44,519 nt of DNA. Source: Beroe ovata. Its lineage: Eukaryota > Ctenophora > Nuda > Beroida > Beroidae. The notes under the pieces were generated by a model. That model saw only the letters and a program-made list of their open reading frames with translations, searched no databases and was not told where the DNA came from. The stretch covers positions 99,167-143,685 of the forward strand of contig CAMPET010000188.1 of NCBI GenBank assembly GCA_946803715.1, given 5' to 3'. Position 1 is the first letter of the stretch. Every line of letters begins with the position of its first letter. The position numbers and the translations under genes are program-made. Positions 7,376 through 38,340 of the stretch are shown piece after piece.

Positions 7376-7860
7376 CATTGACAAGTAAACACTATATCAA
7401 ATTTGATATAAACATCATTGGCGGTAGGCCATCGCAGGACGACTACGTTGCTGTTATAGCAGTAGACAATTTTTCTCAGCAACGTTGTGAAAATAAATCG
7501 GCCAGTACCGGGCAATTAATCCAGTTTGCAAGATGCAAACGCTTTAAGATTATCTGTTCTATAAACAATTAACTTCCATTCTAGATTCAATTGATCGCCA
7601 TCAAATAATTAGTATTACTATTAATATTATCCACCGCTATTGACTATTGGGGAGTTTAAGTTGGGGGAAGGAAGTGGAAAGAAATAATTTGAAAAAAAAT
7701 CTGGGCATGTACATGTAAAGGTCCTATCTCATGGACAATGGAATGAATTAGCTGAATGTCAATGATGATTTCTTCTCGGACATAATTTTTGGATGACAGA
7801 CTTTCAAGATCTTTCATCCGTTGCCCTCACCCATCACCAAAAACAATATCCTCTTCTTCA

Positions 7861-7998
7861 CGCTATCCTGCGTTACAACTCACGCAATCCTGCGTTACAA
7901 CTCACGCAATCCTGCGTTACAACTCACGCAATCCTGCCCAGCACACGCAATCCTGCGTTACAACTCACGCAATCCTGCGTGACAACTCACGCAATCCA
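7861..7998. repeat. 22-bp minisatellite, copy 1
   Basis: About six units of aatcctgcgttacaactcac plus gc, with two shortened or substituted units. The same array lies at 9863-10000 in the duplicated block. Confidence 0.9.
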
Positions 7999-8048
7999 GC
8001 ACACGCGATCATCATAAAGCGTTACGTCTCACGCGCGGTGGCGTGACG

Positions 8049-8107
8049 TCACACGTTTGTTCCCTGCTCCTCGTCAGGAGAACTGATGTCCCGGTCCTCA
8101 GAGATAT
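8049..8107 (-). pseudogene. Truncated duplicate of a terminal exon (assembly copy)
   Basis: This is identical to the 3' part of the terminal exon at 10051-10130, including the stop. It is cut off by the single N at 8108. It is most likely the end of an overlapping contig rather than a biological pseudogene. Confidence 0.6.
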
Positions 8108-9000: not shown

Positions 9001-9862
9001 ATTCAACATACGTGATACGATGATATGCGTCGATGTACATGACATGTACGATACCGATAAGCATGACAATGACGCATGATACTGATAGAAGATCAAGAGC
9101 GCCACGCTAACTAAACAGCGGACACTGGACATTATGCATTACATTTACAACAAGATCATTTTGAACGACAATTTATGAACATAATATATTGTCGAAGAAC
9201 TAGAAGATGGAACATTGGAAAGTGTAAACACATGTCATTGTCAAATTTTATCAGACCAGTTTCTCGCACACGGCGCGTCTTCATAGAATTAGAAATTAGA
9301 ACTAGAAGGCCGACGCGAAATAGCGTGTGTGCGCGCGCGAGAGACAGTCACAGAGGGCAGAAACAATGTGACAAGTAAACACTATATCAAATTTGATATA
9401 AACATCATTGGCGGTAGGCCATCGCAGGACGCGACGACTCGGACTACGTTGCTGTTATAGCAGTAGACAATTTTTCTCAGCAACTGTGTGAAAATAAATC
9501 GGCCAGTACCGGGCAATTAATCCAGTTTGCAAGATGCAAACGCTTTAACTTTAAGATTATCTGTTCTATAAACAATTAACTTCCATTCTCGATGCAATTG
9601 ATCGCCATCAAATAATTAGTATTACTATTATCCGCCGCTATTGACTATTGGGGAGTTAAAGTTGGGGGAAGGAAGTGGAACGAAATAATTTGAAAAAAAA
9701 TCTGGGCATGTACATGTAAAGGTCCTATCTCATGAGGCAATGGAATGAATTAGCTGAATGTCAATGATGATTTCTTCTCGGACATAATTTTTGGATGACA
9801 GACTTTCAAGATCTTTCATCCGTTGCCCTCACCCATCACCAAAAACAATATCCTCTTCTTCA

Positions 9863-10000
9863 CGCTATCCTGCGTTACAACTCACGCAATCCTGCGTTAC
9901 AACTCACGCAATCCTGCGTTACAACTCACGCAATCCTGCCCAGCACACGCAATCCTGCGTTACAACTCACGCAATCCTGCGTGACAACTCACGCAATCCA
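9863..10000. repeat. 22-bp minisatellite, copy 2
   Basis: Same unit and order of variant units as the array at 7861-7998. This supports the two blocks being alleles. Confidence 0.9.
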
Positions 10001-10050
10001 GCACACGCGATCATCATAAAGCGTTACGTCTCACGCGCGGTGGCGTGACG

Positions 10051-10709
10051 TCACACGTTTGTTCCCTGCTCCTCGTCAGGAGAACTGATGTCCCGGTCCT
10101 CAGAGATATCCTCCGCAAGAAGCGCATCATCTGAGTGAAAAAGCCGTTTAATACATAGTCATCAAGAGAGCTCCAGCTCCTTCATAAGGAAGAAGGGACA
10201 ATCTAGTCAAAAAGTTGAATTATTTTACTCCGCCATTTTTCAGAAGACAGATCACACCTATGTGTAATACACTGTGTATACACAGTGTATACTGTACACT
10301 GTACAGTGTATACACTGTGTATACTGTACAGTGTATACATAGTGTATACTGTACAGAGTACTGCATACTGGTACACATCGTTGTGAAGTTAGGGTAATTT
10401 ACCGTGAGCACCGGTTCTTAGTGACAGTCACCCAGCGAGTGCTGATGATGAAATTGGAAATGGTCTGATTCCATTTAATTTCCTAATCATCACTCCACCA
10501 CACGATTCTTATGACTCGGGGAGGATGAAATTTGTCGGATATAAATATATGATGAGCAGCGATGTCATAATGATATGGTTGTCAGCGATGATTGTCAATG
10601 TCAGTGTCATGGTGTGGGGTACAGTGTCTGTGTATCATAGTGGGGTACTGGGGTAAACTCACCAGAGGATTTGGGGGTTGAACCTCCGCTCTGGTTCTGG
10701 TTTAGCATC
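10051..10709 (-). CDS. Last two exons of an unrecognised gene; Ser-rich, acidic C-terminus
   Basis: Two minus-strand exons, 10709-10663 and 10130-10051, are joined by a canonical donor (gtgagt) and an acceptor preceded by a pyrimidine tract (tttttcactcag). Phases agree. The joined frame reads a polar tail including SGGSTPKSSDDALLAEDI and SSPDEEQGTNV, then TGA. The composition is typical of a disordered acidic C-terminal tail. The upstream exons, which would lie to the right between 10.7 and about 14 kb, were not found, so the protein family is unknown. The 3' end of this gene faces the EHBP1-like start. Confidence 0.5.
10258..10372. repeat. Array of GTATAC/TGTACA palindromes
   Basis: The stretch is built from overlapping palindromes. 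One is a perfect 24-bp palindrome at 10267-10290 centred on TATA within TGTGTATACACA. It is followed by repeated GTATACTGTACAGTGTATAC units. It could extrude as a cruciform or be a collapsed microsatellite derivative. It has no coding sense. Confidence 0.8.
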
Positions 10710-14188: not shown

Positions 14189-17100
14189 TCAGGTACCTGT
14201 CAAGAAACAAACAAACACGGCAAACAACAGTTAACGTCCTAACATAAGACAGAAAATATCACAAATTGGTCATAGGCTTGATAGACAATCTTGACAGACA
14301 GCACTTACTTCGGAGTTTCTTCTTGAGTTGCACTGCCATCTGATCAACTGACATATCCTCTTCCTTGAGAGCATGGATCCCGACAAGTGTCATGTCAAAA
14401 TCACCAACTTCAACCTCTGTCACGTCCTCTAGAAACAGAAAATGGGCGTTTTCATTATTTTCATCATGTTCTGACATGCCATTAGATCAATTTTTATCCT
14501 GACTTGTGTGAGGTGCGATAAACTGACTCTTTCGTACAAAAACGACCGCTAAGGATGAAGATCGCAGATGGCACAACTTGGAAATACAATATTTCCCCAC
14601 TCACTTTTCCAGATAGGCAGGATACAATCCTGTGAGGTGATTTTGCTCTTGGAGTGGAGGGATGAGAGTTCGGCACTTGTCCACTTACTGCACTTGTCTA
14701 CAAAGTGTTTGCTTAGCACAACAAGACCGTATTTGCTGAATCGTAAACCGTCCTGAGGGCGGGAGGAGGAGAGTTTATACACTCTGCTACTGGATTTTAG
14801 GTGGGAACGGTGCATCAAAAGAAAACCATATCATCCGATTTCAAGGATTTTCATTAGAACTCTCAAGCAAAGAATGAATGTCTTGCACCCCGCCCCTTTC
14901 CCCGTCGGAGCTCACATTTATAACTCGGTGTAGCTCACAGCCCCAGCTCAGCTCGTCTTTCGCGAAGAACACCTCTATCTTCTCACGTACGAAGGCTTCC
15001 TTCAACTTGACCACGTATTCAAGGTCTTCGCTCACGTGACAGATGAATACGTCCCAACGTTTGGGATCTGAAAATAGTTCACTGTGTTTCGATTTCTCCA
15101 ACAATAAATCGAGCATTACACTAAAAACATCGACTTTTCAAAAAAGGAGTTCTGTGTTTTAAGAGGACAATCAAGATGAATGTTTTCAATTTGGATAAAT
15201 GCCTTCAATGCAAAATTGCAGTGTTCGTAGAGGTCATGAGCAAAACACATACAATTCACGTGATCAGTTACTTCGCACGTTCTTACCCTTGTTCTGGAGG
15301 CAATGCTGGCACGGACTAAACGTGTCCGGTCCTATCAACTTGGGAATTTCCTCGTAGGGGGTCTTTTTGTACGGTCTTAGCCTAGCAGGGGGATTTCGTT
15401 ATCATATCACACACCTACAAACGCACGAACACACATACACACACACACACATACTCGACACACGTCACACAAACATACACACACACACAAACACACACAC
15501 ATCATTTACCTGAAGAAGTATACGAAGACTAGGAGTAGAATAACACAGACACTGAAAACACATGCCACTGGAACTATATACTGAACTAAGTCTTTCCCCA
15601 TTTTGGGGGGCGCAACTGAAAATAGGGGGTCACGATAAGGGGTCACTGGTAATAGGTTATAGGGGGTAAAGATAAGGGGTCACTAGAAGTAGGGGGTTAT
15701 TCTTGATTTCTTAACAGTCAAGTCACATCCTTCAATCGTAGAAAAACTTTAAACAAGAGTAATTGATAGTAACATAAATCGCTAAAATGCTTGACATTAA
15801 ATCGAACAAGCGTTCACCTTTTTTGGACAGAACTCCAGTTTGTAAGTTAAGTAATCACAAAGTAAGTACCCCGTATTAATATTATCGATTTTAATTACTT
15901 TCGAGCAGTATCTTAACTGACGTTTATTCAACATTCACTTCCGCTTAAATGCTTACTACTGCTGATCGTGAAGTGTGGGGGAAGCAACGGCAAAAAGCAA
16001 CAAGGTCGCGTTATTTCAGTGCTTACCTTTGATTAAGAAAATACACTTCCTCACAACAACTTTATTATCACTGGAGGTAGACACGGTTACGAGAGAAAGT
16101 GACACGCAAGGAAATATTTTGAAGCAACACCCAAGCAAAACACCCAGGAAGATCCGATTAAGGCTTCAAGGTTGATTATCCGACACCAATAATTTGAACA
16201 TTATTTTCGTAAACTAACATCCTGCAGATGATGGGCAATACTTAAGAACTTTATAACAGAACTTTACAAGAACTTTACGTAACGGAACTTTAATTCAGGG
16301 ATTGAATGAGGAAACTTTCGGAAACAAAAACGAAATCGAGAATCGTGCTCAAACGAAGCAAAAAAACCGAAGCTGTATACAATAAAACATGTTTTCGTGC
16401 GATAATGAGCCTGGATGTATGCGTTTTGGCATGTTATCACGCACACAAAATAAAGTTACATCCAATAACCAATATTTCAATGAAGGGTAGCTCTATTGTA
16501 ATACATCTGTCAAATCTATACACCCTTCCTATCTCAATATATAGCATTGCACGGCATGGGCAGAGAGAGGGGGGGGGGGCGAAATAACGTGACAAATACA
16601 AAATTGAATTTTGTTATATGGGAGTACCGCGCGGGACAGTGATGGTATCAGTATAGTAATATAATGAGGTTCAGAAGCTTGATATTCGGTAAATCGGTTG
16701 TTTTTTCTGACAGACATCTGACAGGCATCGGTTGTTGTTTCTGACAGGCATGGTTGCATTGTTGAAAAGTGTGTGTGTGCTTGTGTGTGTGTGTGTGTGA
16801 CAGCAGTTGAGATGTTGTCAGATTTGTTTGTATGACAGTTGTTTGTATGTGTAGTTGCATGACTTACTGTCACTTCTGAGGCGTTCACAAAGGAATTGTG
16901 ACAGGGTGCCAACTGCCAAAGGCGAAGTTGATTCGCTAGGAATCTGTCACTCGGAAAATCGCATTATTATTGACGTCGGTAATGATTTAAAACCCGACAT
17001 TTTCTCGAGACATATTGAGTGAGAATCACTGACGAAAAGGAAAAGTTGCAAATATTAGTTGAATTTGTCACCAAATATAAAACTTAGCGATACTTAACAT

Positions 17101-20100
17101 GACAAAATGATGCTCGAATTAAACTTTTGGGACAACCAGCGACAAAATTGACAAATTTTGATAAGATAGAATTAGAAGGATGAGTAGAGTTGTAATTTAT
17201 CAGTCGAAGCTCAGACATCATATGCTTATCTTTACGCACAAACAGACACACTCAAACACTACACACACACACACACACACCCCCAACACCAATAAGCTGA
17301 ATGCCTGGATGGGTGTACCACATCAAACCTGTTTAAATTTCATTTCGTAACTACTCAAAAGAAAAGTTGCCTGGATAAGTGCTCCTTTAAATAACCGCAT
17401 ATTTGAAGTCTGAATACTGTAATTGGATTGGGTCGGTGCAACATCTCAAGGAGCTAATCCTAAAACACGTGGCACATGGAATGTGAGACAAACGTCACTG
17501 ATGACAGTTGTCAACAACCATTTTGCGGTAACAAGTTACAGTAGTCACCGGTGTTTCCGTCCATAACACAGGAACTAAAACAATCATGGATGAACGTCAA
17601 ACGATCGCTCCATAGCGAAATCGAACCAACGATTATGTCGTCTATTTCGATAAATGACCGAATGAATCACGAATGATCGACTCAATCGATAGTGCTTGAC
17701 GTGCGTGATACCCTAATTCAGTAGGAGTACCACTGTGACTTTTAAATAGGTGCTTAATGAATAGGAACGGTCGTCACCACTTGAAGAAATGCGTTCGTCT
17801 CAAATAAAGATCTTTGGGAACTGTATACAATGAGCGGGCATAACGGCGATTGAAGAAGGATAATCGTATTTTATTGCACGGCGCACGCGCAATAACACAC
17901 GTCCTACATAAGCATACAGTATATGCATTGTGCGAAATCCTCTTACAGTACACGTGCAATACCCACATTTATTTCACCCCGCAATATGAAAACCCCCAAA
18001 TTACACGTGCAGCTGTACCTACCTACAATGCATGCATGATAACACCCCTATTCTGCATGTGCATTGTGCAATAACCCCTCAAGTTTTGCACGTGCACGAA
18101 CCCCTCATACTCTGCACGTGCAAGAACTCCTCATAATCTGCACGTGCAATAACCCACCATATTCTGCACGTGCAGCAACCCACCTATAGTGCAGTTGTAG
18201 TTATCTCGACTCCAGGGACCGAGACCGACTTGGTTAGCCACGGCGAGTTTCGCCATCACAGCCTCGGTATTTGTGTACTTGAGCGAGAGGCTTGTGTTCG
18301 ATACCTGAAGTGAATACAAGGAATTTCTTTAGTGCGTTTCTTTCTTAAGGTTGGGAGTTCAACTCAAGCTTCTTTATGAACGGTCCACCGAAAGTCCTCC
18401 ATGATTTTATGAAATAGTACTAGAATTTCTCATAGAATATTCCTTGCTTGCCGCAAGCTATGAGTATGAAGCTATCCTACTCACAGCGAGCATTGACTTA
18501 GCATAAGTGGAATTGTTCTAATAAGTCCTACTATAAGCAGACTTACAATTGGTGCAAAACCTGCTCAGTGCTCAACCGAAGCGAAGCCATTACGTTTCTG
18601 GTAGACCCCCAGTTACTTCATGCATAGATTCATGGATGAATGGGCACGCAATTTCACTTATTGATAAGTCTGCGCGTCCGAATAAGTGTGTGTGTGTGTT
18701 TGTGCGTTTGTGTGTGTGTGTGTGNCAGACCAGTTCCTAGCAGTGTAGTTCACATTAGAGACAATCCGGCTTTTAGCGTCACTGAGAAATCGAGATAAAT
18801 CAATGGAGACCGGCATTGATTGCTGAGCAAAACTCGTTAATTATTCCTCTGCAAGTTCAGTGAAGAAAAATTTTTTAGTAAAAGAAATGTGTCGTGTTGA
18901 TGAAAAATGCCTATAAGATTTCTCGACTAAAATCTTCCACTCCCTACCCTCCCTACTACTCCAACTTTTCGTTACCTGTAATCGTAGTGTACAAGATTGA
19001 GGGTGTAATATTCTATATCCCCATTAACAAGGTCCTGGTCAATACTGATCCACGTTACCGCCACACTGGGATAGTGAGAAGGGTGTGAGAGGGCAAACTT
19101 GTGATCGAGAAGCGCTCTCAAAAACACAGTGACAGGGTTTGCAGACAGGAGTGACAGACAGGAGTGACAGACAGGAGTGACAGATTATTCCCTCTGTTCT
19201 GGGGACCCGATTATTCTCCATTGTCCACTGTGGAATCCACTGTGGACAACTGAACACACAGAGACTCACATGTGACCCATCGGTTGAAATGTGGCAATAC
19301 TCATATGACATGTGTGATGTGACCCATCGTGACCAGTGGTGGAAATGTGACAATACTCACATAACGTGTGACCCGTTGGTGGAAATGTGACAGGAAGACA
19401 GCTGGGGGGCTGACTCAGGATATGATGGCAGAGTGCTGACTTCCACCACAGCTGCCTTACCGACGTCTCCGTTGCTGTTCACTGCTCGGACCTATAACAG
19501 AGGGAGGATAATTTGGACAATGAATGAAAACTTTGGAGTTGTTCACAAGGTTGGTTTTTTGTCTCTGATTGTATGGGAAGTCGCCCATGTTTGCTGTTAT
19601 TTCAATGCAACCATCTCGATTTATTATTTCTAATAGAACTTCGCCTTCCATTTAATTCTCTCTATCACTGGTCAATAGCAACTGTCAATAGGGAAGCACT
19701 TCAATTTCAATCACCCTTCAAAATTAATACCTATCAGAATCAAATCTTGAAGTTTGAACCCTGTCAACTCACGTTGAAGGTATACTGGAAATCTTGGTTG
19801 AGATTAGGGATAGTGATAGTCTGAGTTTGGCCTCCTTCCAACTTTCTGGATAGTGTTTGCATCTCCACTGAAAAGGAATGGACATGATAATTGAGAAACG
19901 ATGAATAACTGATTTCCGATACTGCGAACACTTTTTCCTGACTAAAATTTGAAGATGTAGATTTGTGACTTCACTCCACCTTTGACTCACCAGATTCAAT
20001 GTAAGAGATGTTGTAGTAAGTGAGAACCCCATTTGGAGGATTAGGCCTTGTCACGATCAGATCTATACTGTTCGATGTAGTGTTACCGATGGTTATGCTA

Positions 20101-23041
20101 GGGGGTCCAGCGCCTAGGAACAGAATATAAGTGGTTATTCCATTTATGGGATAATCGTTTGAATGCATTGATCTTAATAAATTCATCGATTTGTGTCACG
20201 AATATTGAATGAAGGTAGTCATACGACGAATTACAAAAGAAATTTTACTGCCGATAGAATAATACGAATCAATGAATAATCCAACTCTCAGAAATCAATC
20301 TTCCTCTTGACTCTGCCACTTTCAAAAACATCCCTATTCCTGGAAGAACAAGTCCTGTTCACAGAACTTGAAGATTCCTCTCGCCCTTCCCCCTTCTCTA
20401 CTCGTTCACTTGGTGTTCTACCATGAATCGCTCTAGAAAACTTCGCCGATCCCCCAGGGGATGCCCCTCTTGTTGCCCCTGAGGTCCCTGACCCTCTGAG
20501 CGATCTCCTAGCGGCACTTATCTCGGCCTGCACACGGACGGACGTTGCAGAGGTCGGGTTGTCCAAGATGGAGGGCGGAGCGGTGGGACGGCGCCGCGCA
20601 CTGCATGATCGGACAAACGTGTTCTCCTTTCCACCAATCAGTGGGCCGAGGGGCAGAGGGGAATGTGGTGCGGGGGTTTTCACGAGATTAATCGAGTGGG
20701 ATGAGGCTGATTTTGAGAGGGATTTCGGTAGCTTTTGTCGCGTTGGGGTCTGCAAAACGGGGATGAAGGAAGTTCTGCGGCGTTTTGGAGTCGGACAGCC
20801 TTCGGTATCTTCTGTTTCTCTAACGTCCGGGTGGATGTTCGTGACGTCACCGGAGCTTGATTTAGTGACGTCATCGATGGTCTTCCTATCAACGTCTTCA
20901 TCACATGTTTCCACTTTGGAGACTTCTGGTTTTGAAACAGTCTCCGAAGATGAGGGCTGCGCAGTCTCTCGGGAAGTCATCTCAGACAGTAGGAGGTCGT
21001 GTTATTTCGGAAGATGATTCAAACGAAAGATAAGACGAGAATAGATGAAATGAGAGGGTGGACTAGGGTTTTATTAGATTTCAAATCCCTTCCTCATCAC
21101 GTACAACGGGATACACGACACCGTGATACCTGATTCTTGACTATTGGGTGATAAAACACAATGATAATGACTAATTATCATTGGGCTTCATCACCCAATT
21201 GATTGATTATTTTACCTAACGTGCAATCATATGTTCATGCTGACAAGTAATTGTTACGGCAATAATGAGGGCGTAATGAAGTCAAGTATACGTAAGATTC
21301 CTATCAAGTGAGAAATTTGGCGGAGTGACGAATATGAAATTGAAGAGACGTCAACTGAAACAGGGTATCGAACAACATGATTCAAACGAAACAGAAAATA
21401 ACTTGTGTCGACCCAAACTCTCACACCCCCCCCTCTTTTTCCAACCCTCTTCCCCATTACCTCAACCCAACACTCACCAGTTGGCGCTGTCTCTGTACAG
21501 TTTTTAATCTCGCTTTCGGGGCCGAGCCCCTCCTTGTTAGCTACAGACACCGCCACGCAGTACATTGTGGCTGGATTGAGCCGTCCGACAGTCCACATTC
21601 CGGAGACGGACGATGTCGGAATTTTCACCTCCGTGAATAACGTTCTGAGTGAAAAGAGTGTATCAGATCTTCCGCCCTACTTGAACCCCAGTCCGCACCT
21701 AAAATGCACCACCCCACGATTTTCTTACCCGTCATCGGTGCGAACTCTCAGCATGTAGAACACAGGATCGGTCCTCCACATGCGGTCCATGTCAGCCACC
21801 TTGAACGATACTGTGATCTCTGTCGGTGTTACGCTCGACAAACTCTTCACTTCCACTGTCGATCCAGGGCTAGCAGGCAGCGTACGGAAGGAGTCGACAA
21901 TACTGTGCAGTTCGTTTGGGTTGCTGTATTTGAACTTCCGTTCAATCTGAGGGACAAGAGGAGTTTGTATGAAGTTGTTTCAGTGGGGCTCAATATAGGG
22001 TACATGGGGTCCGGCTTGGTGGGGATAATTGACCGTGAAATTTGTAAATATCGGAGGCCATGCTGAAATGTGCGCGGCGCATGCGCGGCGCGACGCGCGC
22101 AGCAATTCATGTTTGCTACAGCAGTAGAAGTATAGGGTCAATTTGCTAGTAATAAGCAATACGCAAAATCCACATGCATATCTTAACCGCAATCATCATC
22201 GTTCGAGTGTAGCACTCGTTAAAACGGGTACTGTTCAATGAATTTGGAGCACATAGATGATTCCTGGAACTTAACTTAGTCCTTGAATTTTAGTTACGAG
22301 TCTTATTAAAACTATAGACTACAGCGGCTTAAATGTGCCATCTGCAGTACACGACATCAATCGATAAAACTTGAAGAAGATAAGGTAGCAGGATTACTCC
22401 AGGAATCACGTACAGGAAATGGGTTTCAATCATTGAAATGCCATGCAAATTTGGGCTCCTCGATCAAATCGGATACTCAAATCGTATGCTCATAATTATT
22501 CTGTCAACTCTTACTTGACAGACCAGTGTCACAGAAGTTGATCGCATAATAACATTGAAATTGAATTTCTGCGGAGAGCGACCATCCGAATTTTAACGAT
22601 AACGTCGTGCATGAATAATGTGGCATCATGACATATACTGAATCTCATACATATTACATTCTCGCATATATGTCTGATTAATTGCATACCCCATATGATT
22701 TTAAACGGCAAAAACTGTGTTTTGCCGAAAAAAGTAGGTTTAATTTGTTAACTGTTGGGGATGGATGGGTTAAGGTTTCAGCCTTTTAGGCTCCGGGTTA
22801 TTTGATTGACACACTGAGGGATCCAAAACCTCGTTTTTCGAGGTTTTACCATCGACAACCTCGAGAAATACGTTAGCAAACATAATAATCCATCTTGGAA
22901 TTGAGAGGCAGTTTGCTGTAGAGTTTGCCAACGAACGTTGCAGTGTGAACTGTGAGTTAATACCATACATTCCCTTATTTGGGCATAAAACATATCTCGT
23001 TTTTGGCACGAAATAACATTTCACACAATCTAAGTATCAAT

Positions 23042-23090
<49 letters not shown>

Positions 23091-26000
23091 TTCTATCTCA
23101 CAGGAAGTTTGATTTCTGAGAACCACGATGTTGCTATGGTGACAACCATGACGTGTCACACGTGACAGACATGGAAACACGTGTTTCAATACTCACATTG
23201 ACAGAATACTCCTTGTTTGGGATCAGATTGTAGGCGAATGCTTCATACGTGAACTGAAACACGTATCATTAGGCATAGTTACTTGTACCTCAACTTTGAT
23301 GTAAGAAACAAAAATGATGTCAGAGTATAGAGTGGTGTCAGAGTACAGAGTGGTGTCAGAGCACAGAGTGGTGTCAGAGAGCAGAGTGGTGTCAGAGCAC
23401 AGAGTGGTGTCAGAGCACACAGTGGTGTCAGAGTACAGAGTGGTGTCAGAGTACAGANNNNNNNNNNNNNNNNNNNNNNNNNNNNNNNNNNNNNNNNNNN
23501 NNNNNNNNNNNNNNNNNNNNNNNNNNNNNNNNNNNNNNNNNNNNNNNNNNNNNNNNNNNNNNNNNNNNNNNNNNNNNNNNNNNNNNNNNNNNNNNNNNNN
23601 NNNNNNNNNNNNNNNNNNNNNNNNNNNNNNNNNNNNNNNNNNNNNNNNNNNNNNNNNNNNNNNNNNNNNNNNNNNNNNNNNNNNNNNNNNNNNNNNNNNN
23701 NNNNNNNNNNNNNNNNNNNNNNNNNNNNNNNNNNNNNNNNNNNNNNNNNNNNNNNNNNNNNNNNNNNNNNNNNNNNNNNNNNNNNNNNNNNNNNNNNNNN
23801 NNNNNNNNNNNNNNNNNNNNNNNNNNNNNNNNNNNNNNNNNNNNNNNNNNNNNNNNNNNNNNNNNNNNNNNNNNNNNNNNNNNNNNNNNNNNNNNNNNNN
23901 NNNNNNNNNNNNNNNNNNNNNNNNNNNNNNNNNNNNNNNNNNNNNNNNNNNTGTCAGAGTACAGAGTGGTGTCAGAGTACAGATCGGTTTCAGCACACAG
24001 AATGGTGTCAGAGTACAGAGTAGTGTCAGAGTACAGAGTGATGTCAGAGTACAGAGTAGTGTCAGCGAACAGAGTGGTGTCAGAGTACAGAGTGGTGTCA
24101 GCGCACAGAGTGGTGTCAGAGCACAGAGTGGTGTCAAGAAGATACTCACATTATGTTGTGTGGTTTGAAGGTCCGTCGCATCGTAGATATCCGACGTCAT
24201 GGTAATCAATTTTGCCGGCTGGAACTCCAGTAATGGAGAATTGCAGGGTCGGATCTTGAACCAGATATGGGCTGATGTCGCAGTGATGTTGTCGATATGA
24301 ACCACAGCTGAGGGTGATCAAGAAATATAGGGTCGATATTAGGCATAAGCGTGATAACGGTGAAACATATGCGTGATTAAACTTTACGCTGTTCCAAAAT
24401 AATTGCGTGATATAAGCGTGATATTCATCATGAATTATTCTAAAATTACCATTCGTGTAGAACTTCTTCTCGGATGATGCTCGTCCCAGTAAAAACGTTG
24501 AGGTAACCGTCATGATTTTGAACGCGTAGCAGTATTGAGGGGAGAGGGGTTTCACTTTGAACTGGTGAAGTGGGGTTGATCCCAGGTACAGTGCCTCTTC
24601 CTGAAAAGTGGGGTTCAGGAACCGAGGGGTCAGAATACAGAGTGGTGTCAGAGTGCGGAATGGTGTCAGCGCACATACTGATTACTGGTGTAAGTGCATA
24701 GGGTGGTGTCAGACAACAGAGTGGTGTTAGAGAGCGGAATAGTGTCAGCGCACATGCTGGTGTTAGTGCATAGAGTGGTGTCATAGTACAAAGTGGTGCA
24801 CAGGGTGGAGCTTGGTGGGGTGATTATACACATGGATTTGGTCCTGGAGAAGGGGTTCAGAGATTTGTACCATATTTCGGGGCAGCACATCCCCGACCTA
24901 ATCCGTACAATATTACAATTCCGGATTCTAAATGCTAAGATGCTGCAGAGGAATCTTTAATTAGATTAAAATGCAATGACGAAATACAGTAATGAATCTG
25001 TCCGAATTGACTCGATTTGGACAAATTTGAGCACCAGACCATGTATTTCTGTAGCTACGGTAATGAAACTGGTACACACGGAATTGAGATTAGGAACATT
25101 TAACGAAAAATCTTTTGAATTGGATATCATAACGGATTCGGATAACTCATGAATATCTCATACCGCATCGATATCTTCTAAATCCATGTTGGGTCGAGTT
25201 ATGTTGATGAGGAACACTAGGAAGACAATCGACCGAGGTTCCGGGAACTGCTGCATTTCATTCCAGTAAATCTGAAATTGGGATGTGAAACCTTCGAATT
25301 GCAACAAGTTATAACACGAATACTACCTAGTAGATACACGATGAGCTCACAAACAAACAAACAAGGCAACAAACAAACAAACAAAAGGAGGAAAAAATTA
25401 ACAAAGAAACGGCGAACGACAAGCAATCAAACAAAAAATAATTAACAAACCAACAATGAAAGTAACTTACAACTATACTATCATTCTCCCGTCTATTAAT
25501 AATCTCGTAGATATCTGGAGGGTAGGGGTAGGAGAGATTGTTTGCGTAGTCAACCTCATTTATCTCAACTCTGGACTGTTTCTCGTGGTATCGGCACCCT
25601 TGCTGGCATGCTTCCTTCCCTCCGCAGCGAGCAAAACAGTGTCGGAGTGTGTGGAAATCGTGCGAACACGCTGAGTGATGAGGTTATCTAGCGGAGGAAT
25701 TGTAAGAATGATGATAATTTTTACGAAGGAGTTATTTGTCATTTGTCAAGTCGCATATATGCATATTTTGCACATATTTTGTAATTGATCATTTGATACG
25801 GTCAACATTTGACCACATCATTGATCATAACATACCGACGTTGCAATCTCGGCAAGCCTGATCGTCTTCATCACAGAGGAACACCTCGACCTCATCTTCT
25901 CCGTTATTCTTGATATCGATTTTCTTCAAAGTTCCAAACCTGAACCATGTTCATATGTTCATGGAGAGGCGGATTGAGGTGTTACTTGACTAGGAAGTTG

Positions 26001-26433
26001 CTTGTGAATTCCCCTGACATCTCAACAGAAAGTTTGGAGATGCATGTTCTCCATTGGTCGAAATATGACTGTATAACTCATTGATTCTAGTTACCACAAT
26101 TGATTAATTTCAACGAGCCATAGATTTTTCTAGACATCAGTACAGAGCTTATTTTAGGTGTCGACTTACTCTTGGTTACACCATGCTGAGCATTCGCCTT
26201 GTAACCTTTCGTACCTATACTTTTCAGCAGCTGTACAATCCAAAAACCTGAAAGAATACGAATCAACGTCAATACGAATTAACTGTCATTAATACTGTCA
26301 TTAGTCATTATCTCTGAACAGTGAACAGTATTTCAAAATAACGTGACGAAAGTCTTTCCATTTTGCATTCAGATTCTGAGTCTTCTAAAAATAGAAAATG
26401 TACTTACAGGAGGGAAAGGAGTGCAATTATCAT
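14189..26433 (-). CDS. Single-pass receptor: Cys-rich region, about 5 FN3 domains, TM, cytoplasmic TIR
   Basis: About 21 exons encode about 800 residues. Minus-strand exons: 26433-26408, 26247-26170, 25939-25836, 25670-25471, 25271-25164, 24600-24450, 24307-24150, 23253-23197, 21946-21729, 21644-21478, 20113-19991, 19867-19773, 19491-19461, about 19114-18976, 18304-18184, 15615-15510, 15381-15287, 15067-14916, 14752-14605, 14428-14309 and 14196-14189. All other junctions are in phase with GT-AG; 18976/18304 is unresolved (phase 2 against 0), and a join at 18725 lies between. Residues 1-16 are a signal peptide (MIIALLSLLFLDCTAA). Residues 17-115 hold ten cysteines, spaced somewhat like the anosmin-1 Cys-box as I recall it. 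FN3 domains fill about 115-593, with typical strands such as YCVAVSVANKEGLGPES and VRAVNSNGDV. The TM segment is about 601-624 (YIVPVACVFSVCVILLLVFV), followed by RLRPYKK, so type I. The TIR spans about 662-797: WDVFICHVSED, KDELSWGCELHRVI, YGLVVLSKHF, KWTSAEL, ILPIW. It starts 413 bp head-to-head from the NPC2-like gene. Confidence 0.85.
14309..15067 (-). other. TIR domain exons of the receptor
   Basis: Three exons encode the whole TIR fold. The first holds strand A (DVFICHVSED) and the BB-loop region (FFAKDELSWGCELHRVI). The second holds strand C (YGLVVLSKHF), the W-x3-E segment KWTSAEL and strand D (CILPIW). The third holds the C-terminal helix region (SVDQMAVQLKKKL). The Toll-type RDxxPG BB-loop motif is absent; D-x-L-x2-G-x2-L is found instead, a pattern I associate with SARM-like, plant and bacterial TIRs. 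A two-codon exon (14196-14189) adds the stop. Confidence 0.85.
15412..15502. repeat. (AC)n microsatellite in a receptor intron
   Basis: CA-rich simple repeat between the transmembrane and juxtamembrane exons, ending about 8 bp before the donor of the transmembrane exon. Confidence 0.85.
18040..18183. repeat. 26-bp tandem repeat carrying CACGTG palindromes
   Basis: The perfect palindrome TGCACGTGCA occurs at 18087-18096, 18113-18122, 18139-18148 and 18165-18174, exactly 26 bp apart. A variant TGCATGTGCA lies at 18054-18063, and single CACGTGCA half-sites lie near 17950 and 18004. The array abuts the donor of the last FN3 exon (18184) inside the intron leading to the transmembrane exon. CACGTG is the canonical E-box bound by bHLH factors, so a regulatory role is possible but unproven. 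Confidence 0.8.
18688..18730. repeat. (TG)n microsatellite with single-N join
   Basis: GT-rich run ending at the N at 18725. The join lies in the intron between the two exons of the last FN3 domain, where my gene model has its only unresolved junction. Confidence 0.8.
19136..19390. repeat. Short tandem repeats in a receptor intron
   Basis: A 14-bp unit (acaggagtgacag plus one base) is repeated about four times at 19143-19182. A longer degenerate unit containing tgacccatcggt and ggaaatgtgacaatactcac recurs at 19273-19390. Confidence 0.7.
20288..20980 (-). CDS. Intron-nested 230-codon ORF; basic, S/T-rich, KEN box
   Basis: An uninterrupted ATG-to-stop frame of 230 codons lies within the receptor intron 20114-21477, on the same strand. 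No family is recognised. Low-complexity Ser/Thr/Arg/Pro sequence dominates, suggesting disorder. Visible motifs are a nuclear-localisation-like PTPKRRRT at about 64-70, a KEN box (GGKENTF) at about 118-120, an RxxL at RRSL (about 158-161), several SP/TP sites (TPKR, TPTR, KTPAP, HSPLP, GRTPSE) and a basic end RVKRKIDF. These are common in CDK- and APC/C-regulated cell-cycle proteins, but each is short and can occur by chance. The GC content is higher than the surrounding intron, which supports a real exon. It could be a nested single-exon gene or an unspliced retrocopy. The opposite strand is also open for 152 codons. Confidence 0.5.
   Translation of the reverse strand: MTSRETAQPSSSETVSKPEVSKVETCDEDVDRKTIDDVTKSSSGDVTNIHPDVRETEDTEGCPTPKRRRTSFIPVLQTPTRQKLPKSLSKSASSHSINLVKTPAPHSPLPLGPLIGGKENTFVRSCSARRRPTAPPSILDNPTSATSVRVQAEISAARRSLRGSGTSGATRGASPGGSAKFSRAIHGRTPSERVEKGEGREESSSSVNRTCSSRNRDVFESGRVKRKIDF
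23041..23088. repeat. (AC)n microsatellite
   Basis: Pure CA repeat of about 46 bp in the receptor intron downstream of the 23197-23253 exon. Confidence 0.9.
23314..24137. repeat. 18-bp VNTR with 494-N gap
   Basis: An 18-bp unit, gtgtcagagtacagagtg, is repeated with point variants on both sides of the gap at 23458-23951. Since 18 is a multiple of three, long frames stay open on both strands, for example SEYRVV or LYSDTT repeats, but these are a property of the repeat. The array lies in a receptor intron and its right end comes within about 13 bp of the exon at 24150. Confidence 0.9.
24627..24800. repeat. Degenerate outlier of the 18-bp VNTR
   Basis: Units such as gtgtcagagtgcggaatg and gtgtcagcgcacatactg recur in the neighbouring receptor intron, next to the exon ending at 24600. 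The same family has spread to two adjacent introns. Confidence 0.7.
25360..25455. repeat. (CAAA)n-rich microsatellite
   Basis: Interrupted aaac/aaca repeats in the receptor intron between 25271 and 25471. Confidence 0.8.
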
Positions 26434-26846: not shown

Positions 26847-27641
26847 ATGAAGAAATTCCTTGTTATTTGTGTACTATTCACTGTGGCTGCTGCTGTGGAT
26901 CTAGTATACAAAGACTGTGGAAGCACTGCTGAAATCACAAAGGTGTTCAGTCCTGACTGCAAGGATCCAGTCTGCAAAACAAAGAAAGGTAATACATATC
27001 TTCCTGCAGGCTTATGTTTGGAGGAATATAAACCAATACACAAATTGAATTATGAAACAAATCCTTTATTAATAATGTGTTGTTAGCATTGTGCTGAGGA
27101 AAACAGGTTATGAATAGTTGACAAATCTGTTATCAGGCAAAACCTACAGCATGCAACTATCATTTAAACCAACTACTGAAGAATCTCAACTGACAGTGGA
27201 GCTATATGGTGTCATTGCTGGAATACCTGTCCCATTTCCTCTTGCAGACAAGTGAGTAACCAACACAATTTCATGTTACAATATTGCAAGAAATACAAAT
27301 GGAGATAGCTTGTGATCTAAGAAAACTGTGTCTAGAGATGGTTGCAAAGCTTGTGGAGGTGTATGTCCTATTGAGCCTGGAACTGAAGCAACACTTGTTG
27401 AGGTTTGTCCCACATGCATAGATACTAAAGCATTATTGTTAATTCAACACTGCTAACTTCCACCTAATAGGAGAATGAACACAGTTCATGACCAAGATGT
27501 AATGCATACTCATGCACTTTTCAGGCACTCAAAGTGGAACCCCAATACCCAGCTATGAAAGTGACTGCAAGATGGAAACTTAAAGATGCTAATGACAAAG
27601 AAGTTCTTTGTGTGGAAATACCAGTTGTGATCATCAGCTAA
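26847..27641 (+). CDS. NPC2: NPC2-like ML-domain secreted lipid/sterol-binding protein (four exons)
   Basis: NPC2 proteins bind cholesterol and related lipids in the lysosome lumen or outside the cell. The ML fold is shared with MD-2. Exons are 26847-26988, 27137-27251, 27336-27402 and 27525-27641. All junctions are GT-AG with matching phases, giving 146 residues, close to the usual NPC2 length. The chosen start gives a clean signal peptide (MKKFLVICVLFTVAAA); an ATG 14 codons upstream would hide it. Family landmarks are DCGSTAEITKV near the mature N-terminus, KTYSMQLSFKP, GVIAGIPVPFPL, the DGCKACGGVCPIEPG segment, YPAMKVTARWKL and a C-terminal VLCVEIPVVI. The cysteines fit the three conserved disulfides. 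It is divergently paired with the TIR receptor. Confidence 0.93.
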
Positions 27642-32796: not shown

Positions 32797-35700
32797 ATGG
32801 TAAACCCTGAGTTGTACAATGTAATACAAAGGAACATCAACAATGGACAGTTTAGTGATGCTGTGGACAGTATCAATATCGTCCTTTCCAACTCGGGTGA
32901 GTTGTAGAGGTTACTCTCCGTACCGAAATAGCGACCTCGAACATAATGTGACGAGTGCATGTCACTATGTGACGGCGAGTAACTCCGCCATGACTTTCAA
33001 ACGTGCTCACTAACCTTAACCCAAACCGAAACCCGAGCTGTCACCTCAATTCTCAACTGTAACCCTGTCCTCGATCCTATCCCCAACTCTGACTCTTACT
33101 TCAGCTGGAAGTCTGCCAGATACCCTGGTATCCCAACTATTTCCCAGTCTCATGAACTCTGATGAGTTGTATGTGGAGAAGTGTTGTAAAGCACTGGAGA
33201 GGTTACTCGAGGGTACACCAGTGGATGTTGTCATTGGACAGGTGAGGGGTGTGGCGGTGGCGTGGGGTGGAGGGGTTTAGAGGCTGAGGGGTGTGACGGG
33301 GGAGATGTGGGGTGGAGGGGTTTAGAGGCTGAGAGGTTAGGGGTTGTGGTATGAGGACTGGGGGATGAAGTATGAGGTCAGTGAAGTGAGGGTGCTGGGT
33401 TGGGAGAAGGAGGGTGACCGGAGGGTAGAGAGACTAAGAGAGTGTGATACTGGTCTTAAATGTTTACTCAATTAACCAGTTGGAGATTCAAAATGCTAAT
33501 CTTGCCCCGGATTGTTCATTTGATGGTTCCCTAACACGGTCCTCCTCAGATGGAAGTCCAGCTGAAGCAAGGGTTTGAACATCACTCCCCTGTGGTTAAG
33601 TGTCTGTGTCTCAGACAGCTACAACGAGCAGTCCGGGATAGGAGGTGGGATAAAAACATCAGATATTTCATAACAATACCCTATCTGGAAATTTCTTCCT
33701 CAATAAGTCGAAATGAGGAAGTTTGATAACTTTATCATCAAGCGTCTATAGTGATTTTCACGAAGTACCTATCACACAGTAATTGTCACATTTTGACACT
33801 CACATCTCCCCCTCCCCCGTTTAGGAATCTGAAATTGGTGGGTGAGGTGGGAATCATGAAGCACGCCATACTCCTCCTAGCTGACGAGGATTCGGGCGTG
33901 GTCAAGGAGTGTAACAAGACTCTGGTATCTCTAGCTGGTTACGACGAGGGTGTCATTATCCTGTTCAGGTGTCAATTGCCTGATTCCACCAAATTTGTTT
34001 CTTAGAATAAGCAGTACCACTCTCTATTGACACCACCACCAATCACCATGTACCAATTATTTGACACCACTGACTGTTAGACACTGACACCTAGTGATCA
34101 AGGAGTGAAACTACTGAAGGAGGTAATGGAGCGATCGGACACCATCCGATACCGTGTATTCGATGTGATCATTGACTCCAGTCTGGTGTCAGGACAAGCG
34201 CTAGAGTGTGCACAGACTACGGGGTTTATCACCAAGATTCTTGAGGTGAGGACTGCTAGGGAATTAGGGGAGGTGAGGACTGCTAGTGAAGAACGGGGGT
34301 GAGGACTACTGGGAATAACGGGGGTGTGGGTGATGGTTTGGGTGAGACCTTCGGGTGATTAGAGGAGAACAGCGGGGGCCTCGATGGTGTCAGAGTGTGG
34401 GGTTCATAATTGTAACTTGGTCTTCTTCGATAGAGGGTTGAGGATATGCTTCGCTATACAATTACCACTCAATTACCACTCAATTATCTCCTCCGCAGGA
34501 TCTGGAATCGACTGACGTGCTCCTCCAGCTGACAGCCCTGGAGAATGTGTCCCGTCTGTCGGACAGTCCCACTGCGTACACCGCGCTCCGTAATCTGGGC
34601 ATATTCAAGGGGATAGGGGCGTGGTTGGGAGTCAGTCACAGAGGTGGAAATGCTTCCTTTACCGGTGAGTTTATGTGACGCCTTGAAAGCTGATCATAAT
34701 ACATCATCTATCGTGAAATGTGGTACTGGTGATTGGTGAAGTTATGACGCTCTTCAAATGTTAATTTAATAAAATACTGATACAAGTTCTTGTTGATTCG
34801 AACTTGTAACTATGTCGTATCTACCGCTTAATATTCCAATGCACCGAGCGAGTTATGTTCTTGTTTCAAGTACAGAGTTCCCCTTCAGGCTTTAGATGTA
34901 GATATCTGATAATGTTACATTTGAAATGAAAATTATGCATAGAGCAGCTGCATATTTCGTTTTTATTGGAATTCATTTCCGTAGCTAATCTCAGTACAAC
35001 AGAATTCCTGTTGCATAAAACTTTTATTAAGGGGAAATTGAAATAAACAGTAATTAAATCAAACGCACCTTTCAGCAGATTGCCAAGCATCGTTTAATAG
35101 TTAGCCGTCAAAATAGCTACAAATAAATGGGAAAATAATTGAGTTATGAGAAACAACATTCGAATTGTAATTAAATGAAATAGCTAGGTATCAATGGAAC
35201 AGAATTCTTAAATATTTGCGGTCATTTTCAGTATTGGACCATGTTTTCATTAAAAAGCTAAACTTTTCCCAGTTCCCAGTGTGATCAAGCTGTTTGCAAA
35301 GCTGACACAGAAACACAACGTAGATATCACACAGTTGTGTGAAGAATGTACTGAGTTTATACCTGCTGTATGCACTCTTCTTGACACCAACGAGCTCAGC
35401 GTCAAATGTGAGTATGCTGACACCATGATATGTGGGATTGTTGACACCACTTTCTGTATATTGACACCAATGACGGGCTGTTGACACCACTTATTTACGG
35501 TGATACCGTACCTTATTTCATAAATCAGGACTACTAGGATATAAATTCCGTTTTCGACCACTTTCCCGATGGGATAGCTCAGAAACTCCTTCAATTTCGT
35601 GATCTATGGCCAAAATTAGGCCAGAAAAACCTCTCCATATGTGTGTCTTCTTGATAGCAAATTTCCACTCTGCCTGTGTTGATGTTGATGATGATACCTT

Positions 35701-38340
35701 TGATTTTCGAACAACTAAACACCGTTTCCGAGGTATTTTAGGACGCTGAATCGATTCCCGATCGAATTTCAGCCCTATCTCGCTTGCCTGAGGAGCTGTT
35801 CGTCGCGTGACTTCGAACCAAACATTTGAGATGAAATGCGAATTTTCTCCATTTTCCGGATGAGCTAGCTCAGAAATTCCTCTAGATTCGAATTCTACGT
35901 CAAAAAATAGGCTAGAAACACCTATTTCTATTATGAAGCCCGATAATTAGTTTTTTGGTGTCGGTGTGTCCCATTGATTTTTGCGTTTTTGCAGTGTTTG
36001 CTTCCCAAGGGTTTGAAATGGTGATTCGGGCGTGGTTTCACGGCGAGTTTGAACTCGGCATGTTCGTAAAAACGGTTTACAATTGTAGTGTGAAAGTAGG
36101 AGAGATGATTTGATGGAAAATGATTGTCGTCAGTACCATTGAAGTCCCAATTAGAGGTCCCCGAAAACAGAGTATAAAAGTGTGGACATCATCGACTACA
36201 TTTTTACCGATACTCTGATCTAAAATTGAAGGAAAATTATTTTGAGTGATTTTGATACAAATATCATCTATTCCTAGGTATTTTTGGACGCTGAATCGAT
36301 TGCAATCGGTATTTAAGCTCTTAATTGCTTCCCTGATGCGTTATGAGATACTCCATTTAGTAAATCAGGACTACTAGGATGTAACTGAAACAAATTCCGT
36401 TTTCGACCACTTTCCCGATGGGATAGCTCAGAAACTCCTTCAATATCGTGATCTATGGCCAAAATTAGGCCAGAAACACCTCTCCATATGTGTATCTTCT
36501 TGATAGCAAATTTTCGACTCTGCCTGTGTTGAAATTGAGGATGATACTTCTCGATATGGGAGTTACAGAGTGATTCCACTCGCTTTCTCCTTTGATTTTC
36601 GAACAAGTAACCATCGTTTCCGAGGTATTTTTGGACGCTGAATCGATTGCAATCGGATTGCATCGAATGAAGAATAAAACAAAAAGTTATTTGAACTGAA
36701 TTATTTCATTATAGACCAGTCACCATGGTCAGTCATGTTTTAATAAAGTTTTGTTCGCGATTTTCCTCAAACCACGTACCTACTATCGTGGCATTCATCC
36801 AAAACTCCTAGAGTGAGCCTTCCAACTGAGCAACTGCCACACACACACGCACACACACACGCAAACACACACATAATATATTACGTAATGAAAATCATAT
36901 AAAAATATCAATGTTGAGTAACAAAATCTGGCGAGTTGCCAGCACTTGTAAGTTTTCTATTTTGTTAAAATCACTCGCAAGTAACCCAGGATGGAAAACA
37001 TGAGTCATATCACACAACCGGTGTAAGGCTTTGTTACTTATCGTAACACTCTGCTCATCCGGTTGTTAATATAGGGATTACGTAATGTATGGCTGAAGCT
37101 ATATTATGTACCGTGGAATCGGCAACTCTAGTAGTTACTCTAGAAGTAACTAGGAATTGAATAATAAGGTAGATGGTGGATAGTCGAATAATTCTAGTTG
37201 TACTGCAAAACAAATCTCGCCCTATCGGGGTCGGACGAATCTGTGAATCACACAACACACACACAGAGCAATCAATAATTATTGAACCCTTACTACCTAT
37301 CTGAATAACACGACAGAGCAATATAAGTTGAAATTAAAGTTAAAATTATCGCACTCCCCCCCCTTACAGTGGCGTGTGTGGACGTGTTGACTCTTCTCAA
37401 CGGACGGGTGGACGGAAAGTGCGTCTTCCTCAACTCCCCGTCATCCAACTCAGCTGTCCAGGAGCTCAGTTACCAGGCAACTAGGGGGACGGAGGACGTG
37501 AAGGACAGAGCTCTTGTTGCCCTTGCTCATATCTTTAGGTGAACCACACGTGTTTTGATTGGCATATCAAATTCTCAAGTTCTTACAAGATTAACTCCGA
37601 TATTTCCGATATTTCCGATATTTCCTCTATCTTCACTTCCCCGCCCCTGTATCTACCTTCACTTTCTTTTCGCTTTCTTATCGCCCGGATCTATCCGTCA
37701 CCCCTCCTTTTCAAAGTGCTCCCCTGGACTTATTCTCCCCCACCACCACCACCCCACGCTCACATCCCGCACAGCACTCCCGAAGTATACATCCCGGAGT
37801 TTGCTGCCCGCACGGAGGAATGGTACAGAAGGTGCTGTGCGGGACTTGTCAAGGATACACTCCACTATCTCTCGCATCCAGCCCCGGGCCGACAGTGTGC
37901 CGCTGCTTCACTCCTCACCAACATCGTGGTGCACAGGTAGAAACCCGCACACAACTTTTACAGCAAACCTTGTACACAACTTGTACACAACTTGTACAGC
38001 CAACCTTTCCTTTTTTATGTCACATCTCTAGAGTCTAGAGTAGAACTAGCATAACTTTTTAGTTCATTACTGTGCATAAACGATAAATCAGGACCAAAAT
38101 GAATATCGTTCACGTTGGTCCTGATAGTTCATGCGATTCATGCTTAACTCCCTGCTCCTTCATCATAAACACAGGTGTTGCTCCTTCACAAAACACACGT
38201 GCAGGTACGGAATGGAGGGAATCACCTCAGTACCAGGGTGGTCTGAGCGGATGTTAGATAGAAGATACTCAGTGGACAGGGACTCACAGTCACTCAGATA
38301 TGCTCTCATTATGGCTATAAAGAGATCTCCGGTTATAGAG
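32797..38340 (+). CDS. PSMD5: PSMD5 (S5b), 26S proteasome base assembly chaperone; last exon missing
   Basis: PSMD5 is an ARM/HEAT-repeat chaperone that holds Rpt ATPase subunits during assembly of the proteasome regulatory particle. Ten exons: 32797-32896, 33105-33241, 33550-33644, 33825-33968, 34095-34245, 34499-34664, 35273-35407, 37370-37538, 37775-37936 and 38205-38340. All junctions are in phase, giving 465 codons. Family landmarks are LMNSDELYVEKCCKALERL, VECNKTLVSLAGYDEG-type ARM repeats, SDTIRYRVFDVIIDSSLVSG and ENVSRLSDSPTAYTALRNLG. The conserved C-terminal stretch of about 40 residues is absent: exon 10 ends at a donor, and a single-N join at 38418 follows. Intron 7 contains satellite DNA. 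A second copy of exons 3-6 is found at 40868-42117. Confidence 0.92.
33242..33440. repeat. G-rich tandem repeat in PSMD5 intron 2
   Basis: Repeats of ggtggaggggtttagaggctg and related G-rich words on the sense strand. Similar g-t-g-a-g-g-g repeats flank the join at 38418. Confidence 0.6.
35505..36665. repeat. Satellite-like repeat inside PSMD5 intron 7
   Basis: Copies of the core ggacgctgaatcgatt start near 35740, 36287 and 36632, giving one spacing of about 547 bp and one of about 345 bp. Two related monomer types alternate: a long one with GGGCGTGGTTTCACGGCGAG and a short one with GGACTACTAGGAT and TCGTGATCTATGGCCAAAAT. This is the same family as at 1-1170 and 42119-43907. Confidence 0.85.
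36835..36872. repeat. (AC)n microsatellite in PSMD5 intron 7
   Basis: Interrupted CA repeat with occasional CG. Confidence 0.85.

Follow-up and report, generated by a model that had tools for sequence, protein, structure and literature searches.

A predicted FN3-TIR receptor of the ctenophore Beroe ovata with a TIR domain of prokaryotic type by homology

Which kind of receptor joins FN3 repeats outside the cell to a TIR domain inside it in a ctenophore, and does such a TIR domain act as an enzyme or as a scaffold? These questions are raised by a locus within a 44,519-nucleotide stretch of the Beroe ovata genome (contig CAMPET010000188.1, positions 99,167 to 143,685; this whole stretch is referred to as the window), the minus strand of which carries a predicted receptor gene that starts at 26433 and spans about 26433-10051. 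The original prediction, made from the sequence letters, had proposed a signal peptide, ten clustered cysteines, about five FN3 domains, a transmembrane (TM) span and a complete TIR domain, and all of these parts were found on the minus strand. By homology, the TIR domain belongs with the prokaryotic NADase (anti-phage) TIRs and not with those of the Toll/IL-1R kind, and an Asp of its NAD site is replaced by Ala. What is new here is the conservation of the receptor among ctenophores, the kinship of its TIR domain, the Asp-to-Ala change and a pair of alternative tails; the architecture is partly known already.

The gene was modelled as a hand-built chain of GT-AG introns running from 26433 to 14189, which gave 21 exons and a protein of 813 residues with consistent phases and no internal stop. 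This independent chain reproduces both the span and the count of about 21 exons that had been proposed, but the final exon of that model (14196-14189, coding for 'ST-stop') is wrong: in the relatives the reading frame continues to one of two alternative ends, giving 22 or 23 exons. The start first given to exon 15 was replaced after alignment with the relatives, and exon 18822-18754, absent from the first chain, was added from them. The features of the resulting model are as follows.

26433-26408 and 26247-26170, minus strand: exons 1 and 2, with the signal peptide MIIALLSLLFLDCTA and the start of the Cys box (GT-AG chain, aligned relatives, signal peptide by eye)
26247-26170, 25939-25836 and 25670-25471, minus strand: Cys box with ten Cys, exons 2 to 4 (9/10 Cys invariant in four sequences)
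25670..18184, minus strand: about five FN3-like domains (Pfam fn3, AlphaFold2 model of P0006, Foldseek)
25670-25471, 25271-25164, 24600-24450, 24307-24150, 23253-23197, 21946-21729 and 21644-21478, minus strand: FN3 exons, first part
20113-19991, 19867-19773, 19491-19361, 19065-18976, 18822-18754 and 18304-18184, minus strand: FN3 exons, second part
15615-15510, minus strand: TM exon, VQYIVPVACVFSVCVILLLVFVYFF (hydropathy peak, alignment with relatives)
15381-15287, minus strand: juxtamembrane exon, RLRPYKKTPYEEI...FSPCQHC, with a CxxC motif (73-76% identity to five relatives)
15067-14916, 14752-14605 and 14428-14309, minus strand: TIR domain in three exons, with phase 1 introns on both flanks (Pfam TIR_2, relatives, PDB, phases)
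12286-12156, minus strand: predicted alternative last exon a, SSGSCYSWGC...DSLDTTLL-stop (tblastn with P0002, E 2e-4; phase 1 acceptor)
10737-10663, minus strand: predicted alternative exon b1, NDGCWGCSLRMLNQNQSGGSTPKSS (tblastn with P0003, E 5e-8; matches the tail of P0003-P0006)
10130-10051, minus strand: predicted alternative last exon b2, DDALLAEDISEDRDISSPDEEQGTNV-stop (top phase 1 candidate downstream; phase and stop fit)

From the 22- or 23-exon splice chain and from ctenophore proteins that match it end to end, the locus is predicted to be one gene. The best full-length matches are ctenophore proteins, of which P0001 and P0002 correspond to Mnemiopsis leidyi ACHWQZ_G019122 and P0003 to P0006 are JGI and Logan entries. 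Over residues 420-813, six proteins of ctenophore type show 51-53% identity, with E-values from 6e-142 to 7e-135. P0002, P0003 and P0006 align end to end, and the N-terminus is absent from P0004 and P0005. The proteins P0003, P0004, P0005 and P0006 (899, 745, 785 and 884 residues) lie on contigs of 3866, 3759, 2971 and 2842 bases respectively; since an equal coding stretch needs more than 14 kb in the window, these contigs must derive from spliced RNA. Hence, the question of whether the FN3 and TIR parts share one transcript is answered at the level of the family, in that the spliced RNA of the relatives holds both, and ACHWQZ_G019122 likewise has FN3 and TIR within one protein. The Cys box, FN3 domains, TM span and TIR domain fall within a single gene, as is characteristic of a ctenophore TIR2-FN3 receptor. 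The protein similarity searches needed exact words in common with the query, so relatives outside the ctenophores may have been missed.

That the locus might instead hold two adjoining genes, or a mis-joined model, is very improbable. Such an explanation could point to the large introns, to the join at 18976/18822, where the best donor of exon 19065-18976 is of phase 2 and the next exon needs phase 0, and to a run of 494 Ns at 23458-23951, but it is contradicted by the end-to-end relatives on cDNA-sized contigs and by the single Mnemiopsis gene. The N run is intronic and alignment with the relatives reveals no lost exon there; tandem repeats of about 18 bases, seen by eye, lie on both sides of it at 23313-24798.

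Conservation is distributed unevenly along the protein. Identity to five relatives is 84-87% in the TIR domain, 73-76% in the juxtamembrane part and 33-36% in the FN3 part, and that of the Cys box is 35-41% in the three relatives covering it; residues 640-812 are 84% identical to the Mnemiopsis relative. Among remoter pieces, P0010 (50% over the cytoplasmic part) and P0011 (68%) share juxtamembrane or tail motifs. The cytoplasmic side stays constant while the ectodomain drifts, and a fast-changing ectodomain would be compatible with a receptor for changing ligands. For M. leidyi, a 2025 genome paper reports 15 TIR2 genes and no canonical TLR, four of the TIR2 genes being up-regulated after re-exposure to Vibrio, and states that one of these, 'gene 3', has extracellular FN3 repeats (PMC11797021, available sections). 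This 'gene 3' is probably ACHWQZ_G019122.

Searched against Pfam, the predicted protein yields fn3 (7.2e-17, two stretches), TIR_2 (2e-10), TIR (2.1e-6) and Interfer-bind (5.7e-7), all above the cut-off, so that the domain search of the joined protein bears out both its FN3 and its TIR parts. An IL-17R/SEFIR reading was rejected, as no SEFIR family is matched in Pfam at E≤1 and TIR_2 is found instead. Hydropathy exceeds 1.6 only in the 19-residue windows starting at 640-654, which indicates a single TM span. The AlphaFold model is that of the relative P0006, built on a 32-sequence alignment, and with a mean pLDDT of 59 and a pTM of 0.36 it is usable for the FN3 and TIR blocks only, where values are mostly 60-90; an alignment-free model was discarded (pLDDT 37). 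In it, about five FN3-like sandwiches can be read by eye in residues 144-641, followed by a TM helix at 655-672 and alternating strands and helices of the TIR domain at 709-845. The best 50 Foldseek rows contain FN3-bearing ectodomains of LAR, RPTPs, gp130, contactins and ROS1 at 10-20% identity (TM-score by query 0.14-0.23) and no TIR, and these matches indicate FN3 arrays and nothing more.

The ten Cys of the Cys box lie downstream of the signal peptide, between residues 28 and 95, and nine of them are invariant where the window protein, P0002, P0003 and P0006 are aligned. Anosmin-1 (KAL1) carries a Cys box plus a WAP domain ahead of its FN3 domains. The anosmin-like character first given to the box found no backing: Pfam gives no match at E≤1 in any of four members (0/4), and the profile of the box matches no PDB sequence (0 at E≤1). 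These results bear on whether the protein is a developmental or adhesion receptor, with a contactin-, LAR- or anosmin-like input and a TIR domain in a non-immune role. Such a function is improbable: the top Foldseek matches (LAR, RPTPs, gp130 and contactins) are what would be expected of it, but they mirror the FN3 fold only, the Cys box matches nothing in Pfam or PDB, and a relative is reported to be immune-induced (PMC11797021, available sections).

The kinship of the TIR domain is best seen in direct comparisons. Against the PDB, 14 sequences are matched at E≤1, the top seven of which, at E-values of 8.8e-16 to 1.1e-12, we take to be bacterial TIRs; the best Toll-related match has an E-value of 0.085. 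Among PADLOC models the domain matches the anti-phage TIRs PDC-S66 (2e-35) and Thoeris ThsB (4e-17), and it matches the NCBIfam retron-TIR model at 1.6e-19, far under the bit cut-off of that model. It is 38% identical to AbTIR. A scan of prokaryotic genomes confirmed at least 471 TIR relatives, the best 80 of them at 33-45% identity. A profile of the cytoplasmic part matched 4652 proteins, and among the 120 listed three ctenophore-like pieces lead; the organism-named rows that follow these within the same 120 are prokaryotic in six cases out of six, most rows being nameless, so eukaryotes are possible among them. Plain Pfam names are uninformative on kinship, because TIR_2 matches nearly every TIR clade (PMC13142454, available sections). 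PF01582 was reported as undetected in three ctenophores (PMC11797021, available sections), yet it is above the cut-off in the window protein.

A tree of 40 rows (41 in an earlier version, with 26 of the 80 prokaryotic loci used in both) places the six ctenophore TIRs in one clade with support of 100/100, in which the window sequence pairs with P0006 (99/93). This clade sits in a 34-row set with 28 prokaryotic-type rows (98/98) and in a smaller 30-row set (97/99), with TLR1, TLR2, MyD88, SARM1 and a further pair of TIR_2 proteins from the B. ovata genome outside; a finer placement among the prokaryotic rows is not given by the tree. Forcing the ctenophore TIRs together with TLR and MyD88 gave a p-value of 0.046 in the approximately unbiased test, a borderline result in the presence of long branches. 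Three properties of the tree limit its weight as evidence of a prokaryotic kinship: the prokaryotic sequences had been retrieved for their resemblance to this TIR, so that part of the clustering is a product of selection; the eukaryotic TIRs sampled are limited to TLR1, TLR2, MyD88, SARM1 and the own-genome and ctenophore rows; and the branches of SARM1, MyD88 and both own-genome rows are very long. According to the available sections of PMC11797021, ctenophore TIR2s grouped with non-metazoan and early metazoan TIRs.

The exon structure suggests how the parts came together. The TIR exons start and finish at phase 1 introns, and the TM exon and a pair of FN3 domains, at exons 7 and 11, also start in phase 1. 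Phase 1 borders are the pattern expected of exon shuffling. The introns inside the TIR domain argue against recent contamination. The TIR domain was probably captured from prokaryotic TIRs, or is of old common stock with them, and was joined to the FN3 and TM parts by phase 1 shuffling.

Searches of the B. ovata genome itself covered an assembly of 77.8 Mb in 534 contigs. In the protein search, in which the best candidates were scored, 20 matches reach E≤1; 19 of them belong to this locus and the remaining one, at E 0.077, resembles the FN3 part weakly, so no second gene of this kind appears there. Searches of the assembly with PF01582 and PF13676 do not list this TIR domain, probably owing to its split over three exons. 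Two other loci, L003 and L004, are TIR_2 genes with long uninterrupted reading frames; L003 has a weak PDB kinship to a CRISPR Cat1-type TIR (2e-4), and the TIR repertoire of the genome is mixed.

Whether the domain works as an enzyme can be approached through its NAD site. In AbTir, mutations at S140, R151, D167, V193, W204, E208, R215 and Y238 inhibit the NADase, and AbTir D167A and the equivalent TcpC D203 mutant lose their activity (PMC11374754, available sections). These positions were compared between nine non-identical ctenophore TIRs and 192 others (115 proteins and 77 loci), identical rows being merged; a first count used 193 relatives, one Legionella-named match being dropped thereafter, as was the TcpB row from the profile. 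At the gapless column of D167 the ctenophore TIRs have Ala in 9/9, whereas Asp is present in 192/192 others; elsewhere in this column SARM1 has Asp, TLR1 and TLR2 His, and MyD88 Ser. At the R151 position, Ile, Val, Phe or Thr is found in all eight ctenophore TIRs with a residue there, against Arg in 148 of the 192 others, and the S140 position has Cys in 8/8 ctenophore TIRs with a residue and in 31/192 others. The R215 position is Lys in 9/9 and the Y238 position Phe in 8/9, both residues being common among the other relatives. V193, W204 and E208 are each retained in 9/9, as is the WxxxE motif. The idea of a plain NADase receptor was downgraded after the published AbTir mutants had been mapped onto the TIR domain.

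Because D167 is lost in 9/9 and the published D167A mutant is inactive, a scaffold is favoured, and the receptor TIR domain is likelier to signal by TIR-TIR assembly than by NAD+ cleavage. An enzymatic receptor, in which TIRs clustered at the membrane by a bound ligand would cleave NAD+ (or carry out base exchange) in the manner of SARM1 or Thoeris and lead to cell death or a messenger of the cyclic ADP-ribose type, is unlikely, though it would explain why the domain is nearest to AbTIR, other NADase TIRs and ThsB-type models and why the WxxxE Trp and Glu are kept in 9/9 ctenophore sequences. It is opposed by the change of D167 to Ala in 9/9 and the presence of Arg at the R151 position in 0/8, both residues being required in AbTir and TcpC according to the available sections of PMC11374754. 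WxxxE is also found in human TLR2 and is alone a weak sign of catalysis. More than 70% of all TIRs keep the Glu of this motif, and no metazoan TIR other than SARM1 is known to have NADase activity (PMC7075850, available sections). Against the scaffold it must be set that the strictly kept WxxxE and NAD-site Val are compatible with a working enzyme as well, that the Asp of AKDEL would fall on D167 if the alignment were given two compensating gaps of two residues each, and that Dictyostelium TirC E162A becomes active again under crowding (PMC13142454, available sections), which makes arguments from single residues weak.

Beyond the TIR domain the protein is predicted to end in one of two ways, tails a and b both being spliced from one phase 1 donor at 14309. 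Two of the tail exons were found by tblastn with relatives and b2 by a phase 1 scan, in which it scored a BLOSUM value of 34 against 24 for the runner-up among the downstream phase 1 candidates. Since both tails lie in one locus, they are taken as predicted alternative ends; P0009 (tail a) and P0006 (tail b) are alike in 134 of 136 TIR residues. Tail a ends in DSLDTTLL, its counterparts P0002, P0009 and P0010 in DSLHTTLL; tail b ends in EEQGTNV, with GTSV in P0003-P0005 and SIV in P0006. We take the C-terminus of both tails to be a class I PDZ-type sequence. A CWGC motif is present in tail b of the window protein and of P0003-P0006, and tail a has CYSWGC in the window protein and CWGC in its relatives. 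A repeat of 96% identity (7379-8107 against 9369-10109) contains 59 identical bases of exon b2 (8107-8049) without the acceptor; a single N follows this copy at 8108, and an assembly join is possible instead of a true duplication.

The domain order, the single transcript of the relatives, the TIR kinship, the Asp-to-Ala change in 9/9 and the two tails of this one locus, all read from sequence, allow a mechanism to be proposed. An outside ligand or microbial surface would cluster the fast-diverging FN3/Cys ectodomain, and clustering would gather the strongly conserved TIRs, which would then form a filament-like seed. Through their Cys motifs and class I PDZ-type ends, the two tails would select scaffolds or membrane microdomains, and the pathway would lead to an innate immune response. 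It is conceivable, though short of an even chance, that the Toll-like signalling principle was invented a second time in ctenophores, by capture of a prokaryotic anti-phage TIR enzyme that was disarmed at its otherwise invariant NAD-site Asp, joined through exon shuffling to FN3 and Cys modules and given two PDZ-ended tails.

If this is true, ctenophores, a phylum from which canonical TLRs are reported absent, would possess an animal pattern receptor that arose apart from the Toll/IL-1R TIR lineage. A receptor that is conserved and equipped with a prokaryotic-type TIR domain would illustrate the passage from a bacterial defence enzyme to an animal signalling domain, and would show whether the loss of one NAD-site residue is a step from enzyme to scaffold, the D167 position being non-Asp in TLR1 and TLR2 as well. 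The choice between enzyme and scaffold is addressable with one purified domain.

The rest of the window holds some further features. An intronless open reading frame of 230 residues (MTSRETAQPSSSE..., 20980-20291, minus strand) lies within an intron of the receptor gene on the same strand; it has a GGKEN resembling a KEN box as well as stretches rich in TP, matches no Pfam family at E≤1 and is possibly a nested cell-cycle gene. Directly upstream of the receptor gene, a divergent gene (MKKFLVICVLFTVAAAVDLVYKDCGS...) starts at 26847 on the plus strand, and we presume a resemblance to NPC2/ML-domain proteins. Repeats of up to 1.3 kb with 72-92% identity occur at 33440-36657, 40868-43868 and 1-1170, some with single-N borders.

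Among known systems the closest is the M. leidyi TIR2+FN3 gene, which like the window gene has the full architecture, with tail a. It appears in print in a sentence of the discussion and a figure legend; the main text does not refer to NADase, and the NAD-site change and alternative tails are not mentioned in the available sections (PMC11797021). The original view that no named family has this order therefore holds for the name, as none of four fused FN3-TIR names was found in the literature (mainly freely available papers), but not for the combination, which has been printed for M. leidyi.

The bacterial TIR NADases (AbTIR), Thoeris ThsB, PDC-S66 and retron-TIR share with the receptor the TIR domain and WxxxE. 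Bacterial NADase and anti-phage TIRs are not known to have a receptor ectodomain. The other relatives compared have Asp at D167 (192/192), whereas the ctenophore receptor TIRs have Ala. Toll-like receptors are likewise single-pass proteins with a cytoplasmic TIR domain and no NAD-site Asp (His in TLR1 and TLR2), but their ectodomain consists of leucine-rich repeats (LRRs) and their TIR domain is of another lineage. The sponge receptors with immunoglobulin (Ig) domains and a TIR domain, and IL-1R, are also single-pass, but have an Ig ectodomain where the window protein has FN3. As originally proposed, the receptor differs from both groups, no LRR or Ig family being matched in Pfam at E≤1. Sponge and cnidarian surveys describe Ig-TIR, TLR and TLR-like proteins, and their available sections name no FN3-TIR (PMC6208332, PMC8260672).

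With its FN3-TM-TIR order and no ARM or SAM in Pfam at E≤1, the window protein is unlike SARM1. The latter is an ARM-SAM-TIR protein and no receptor. SARM1 retains the NAD-site Asp and is absent from the 14 PDB matches of the receptor TIR domain at E≤1. It is described as an animal TIR within a bacterial lineage (PMC13142454, available sections). Finally, Dictyostelium TirC resembles the receptor as a eukaryotic TIR protein derived from prokaryotic defence and bearing a hydrophobic helix, but differs from it in having an N-terminal helix only and in being an active NADase (PMC13142454, a preprint, available sections).

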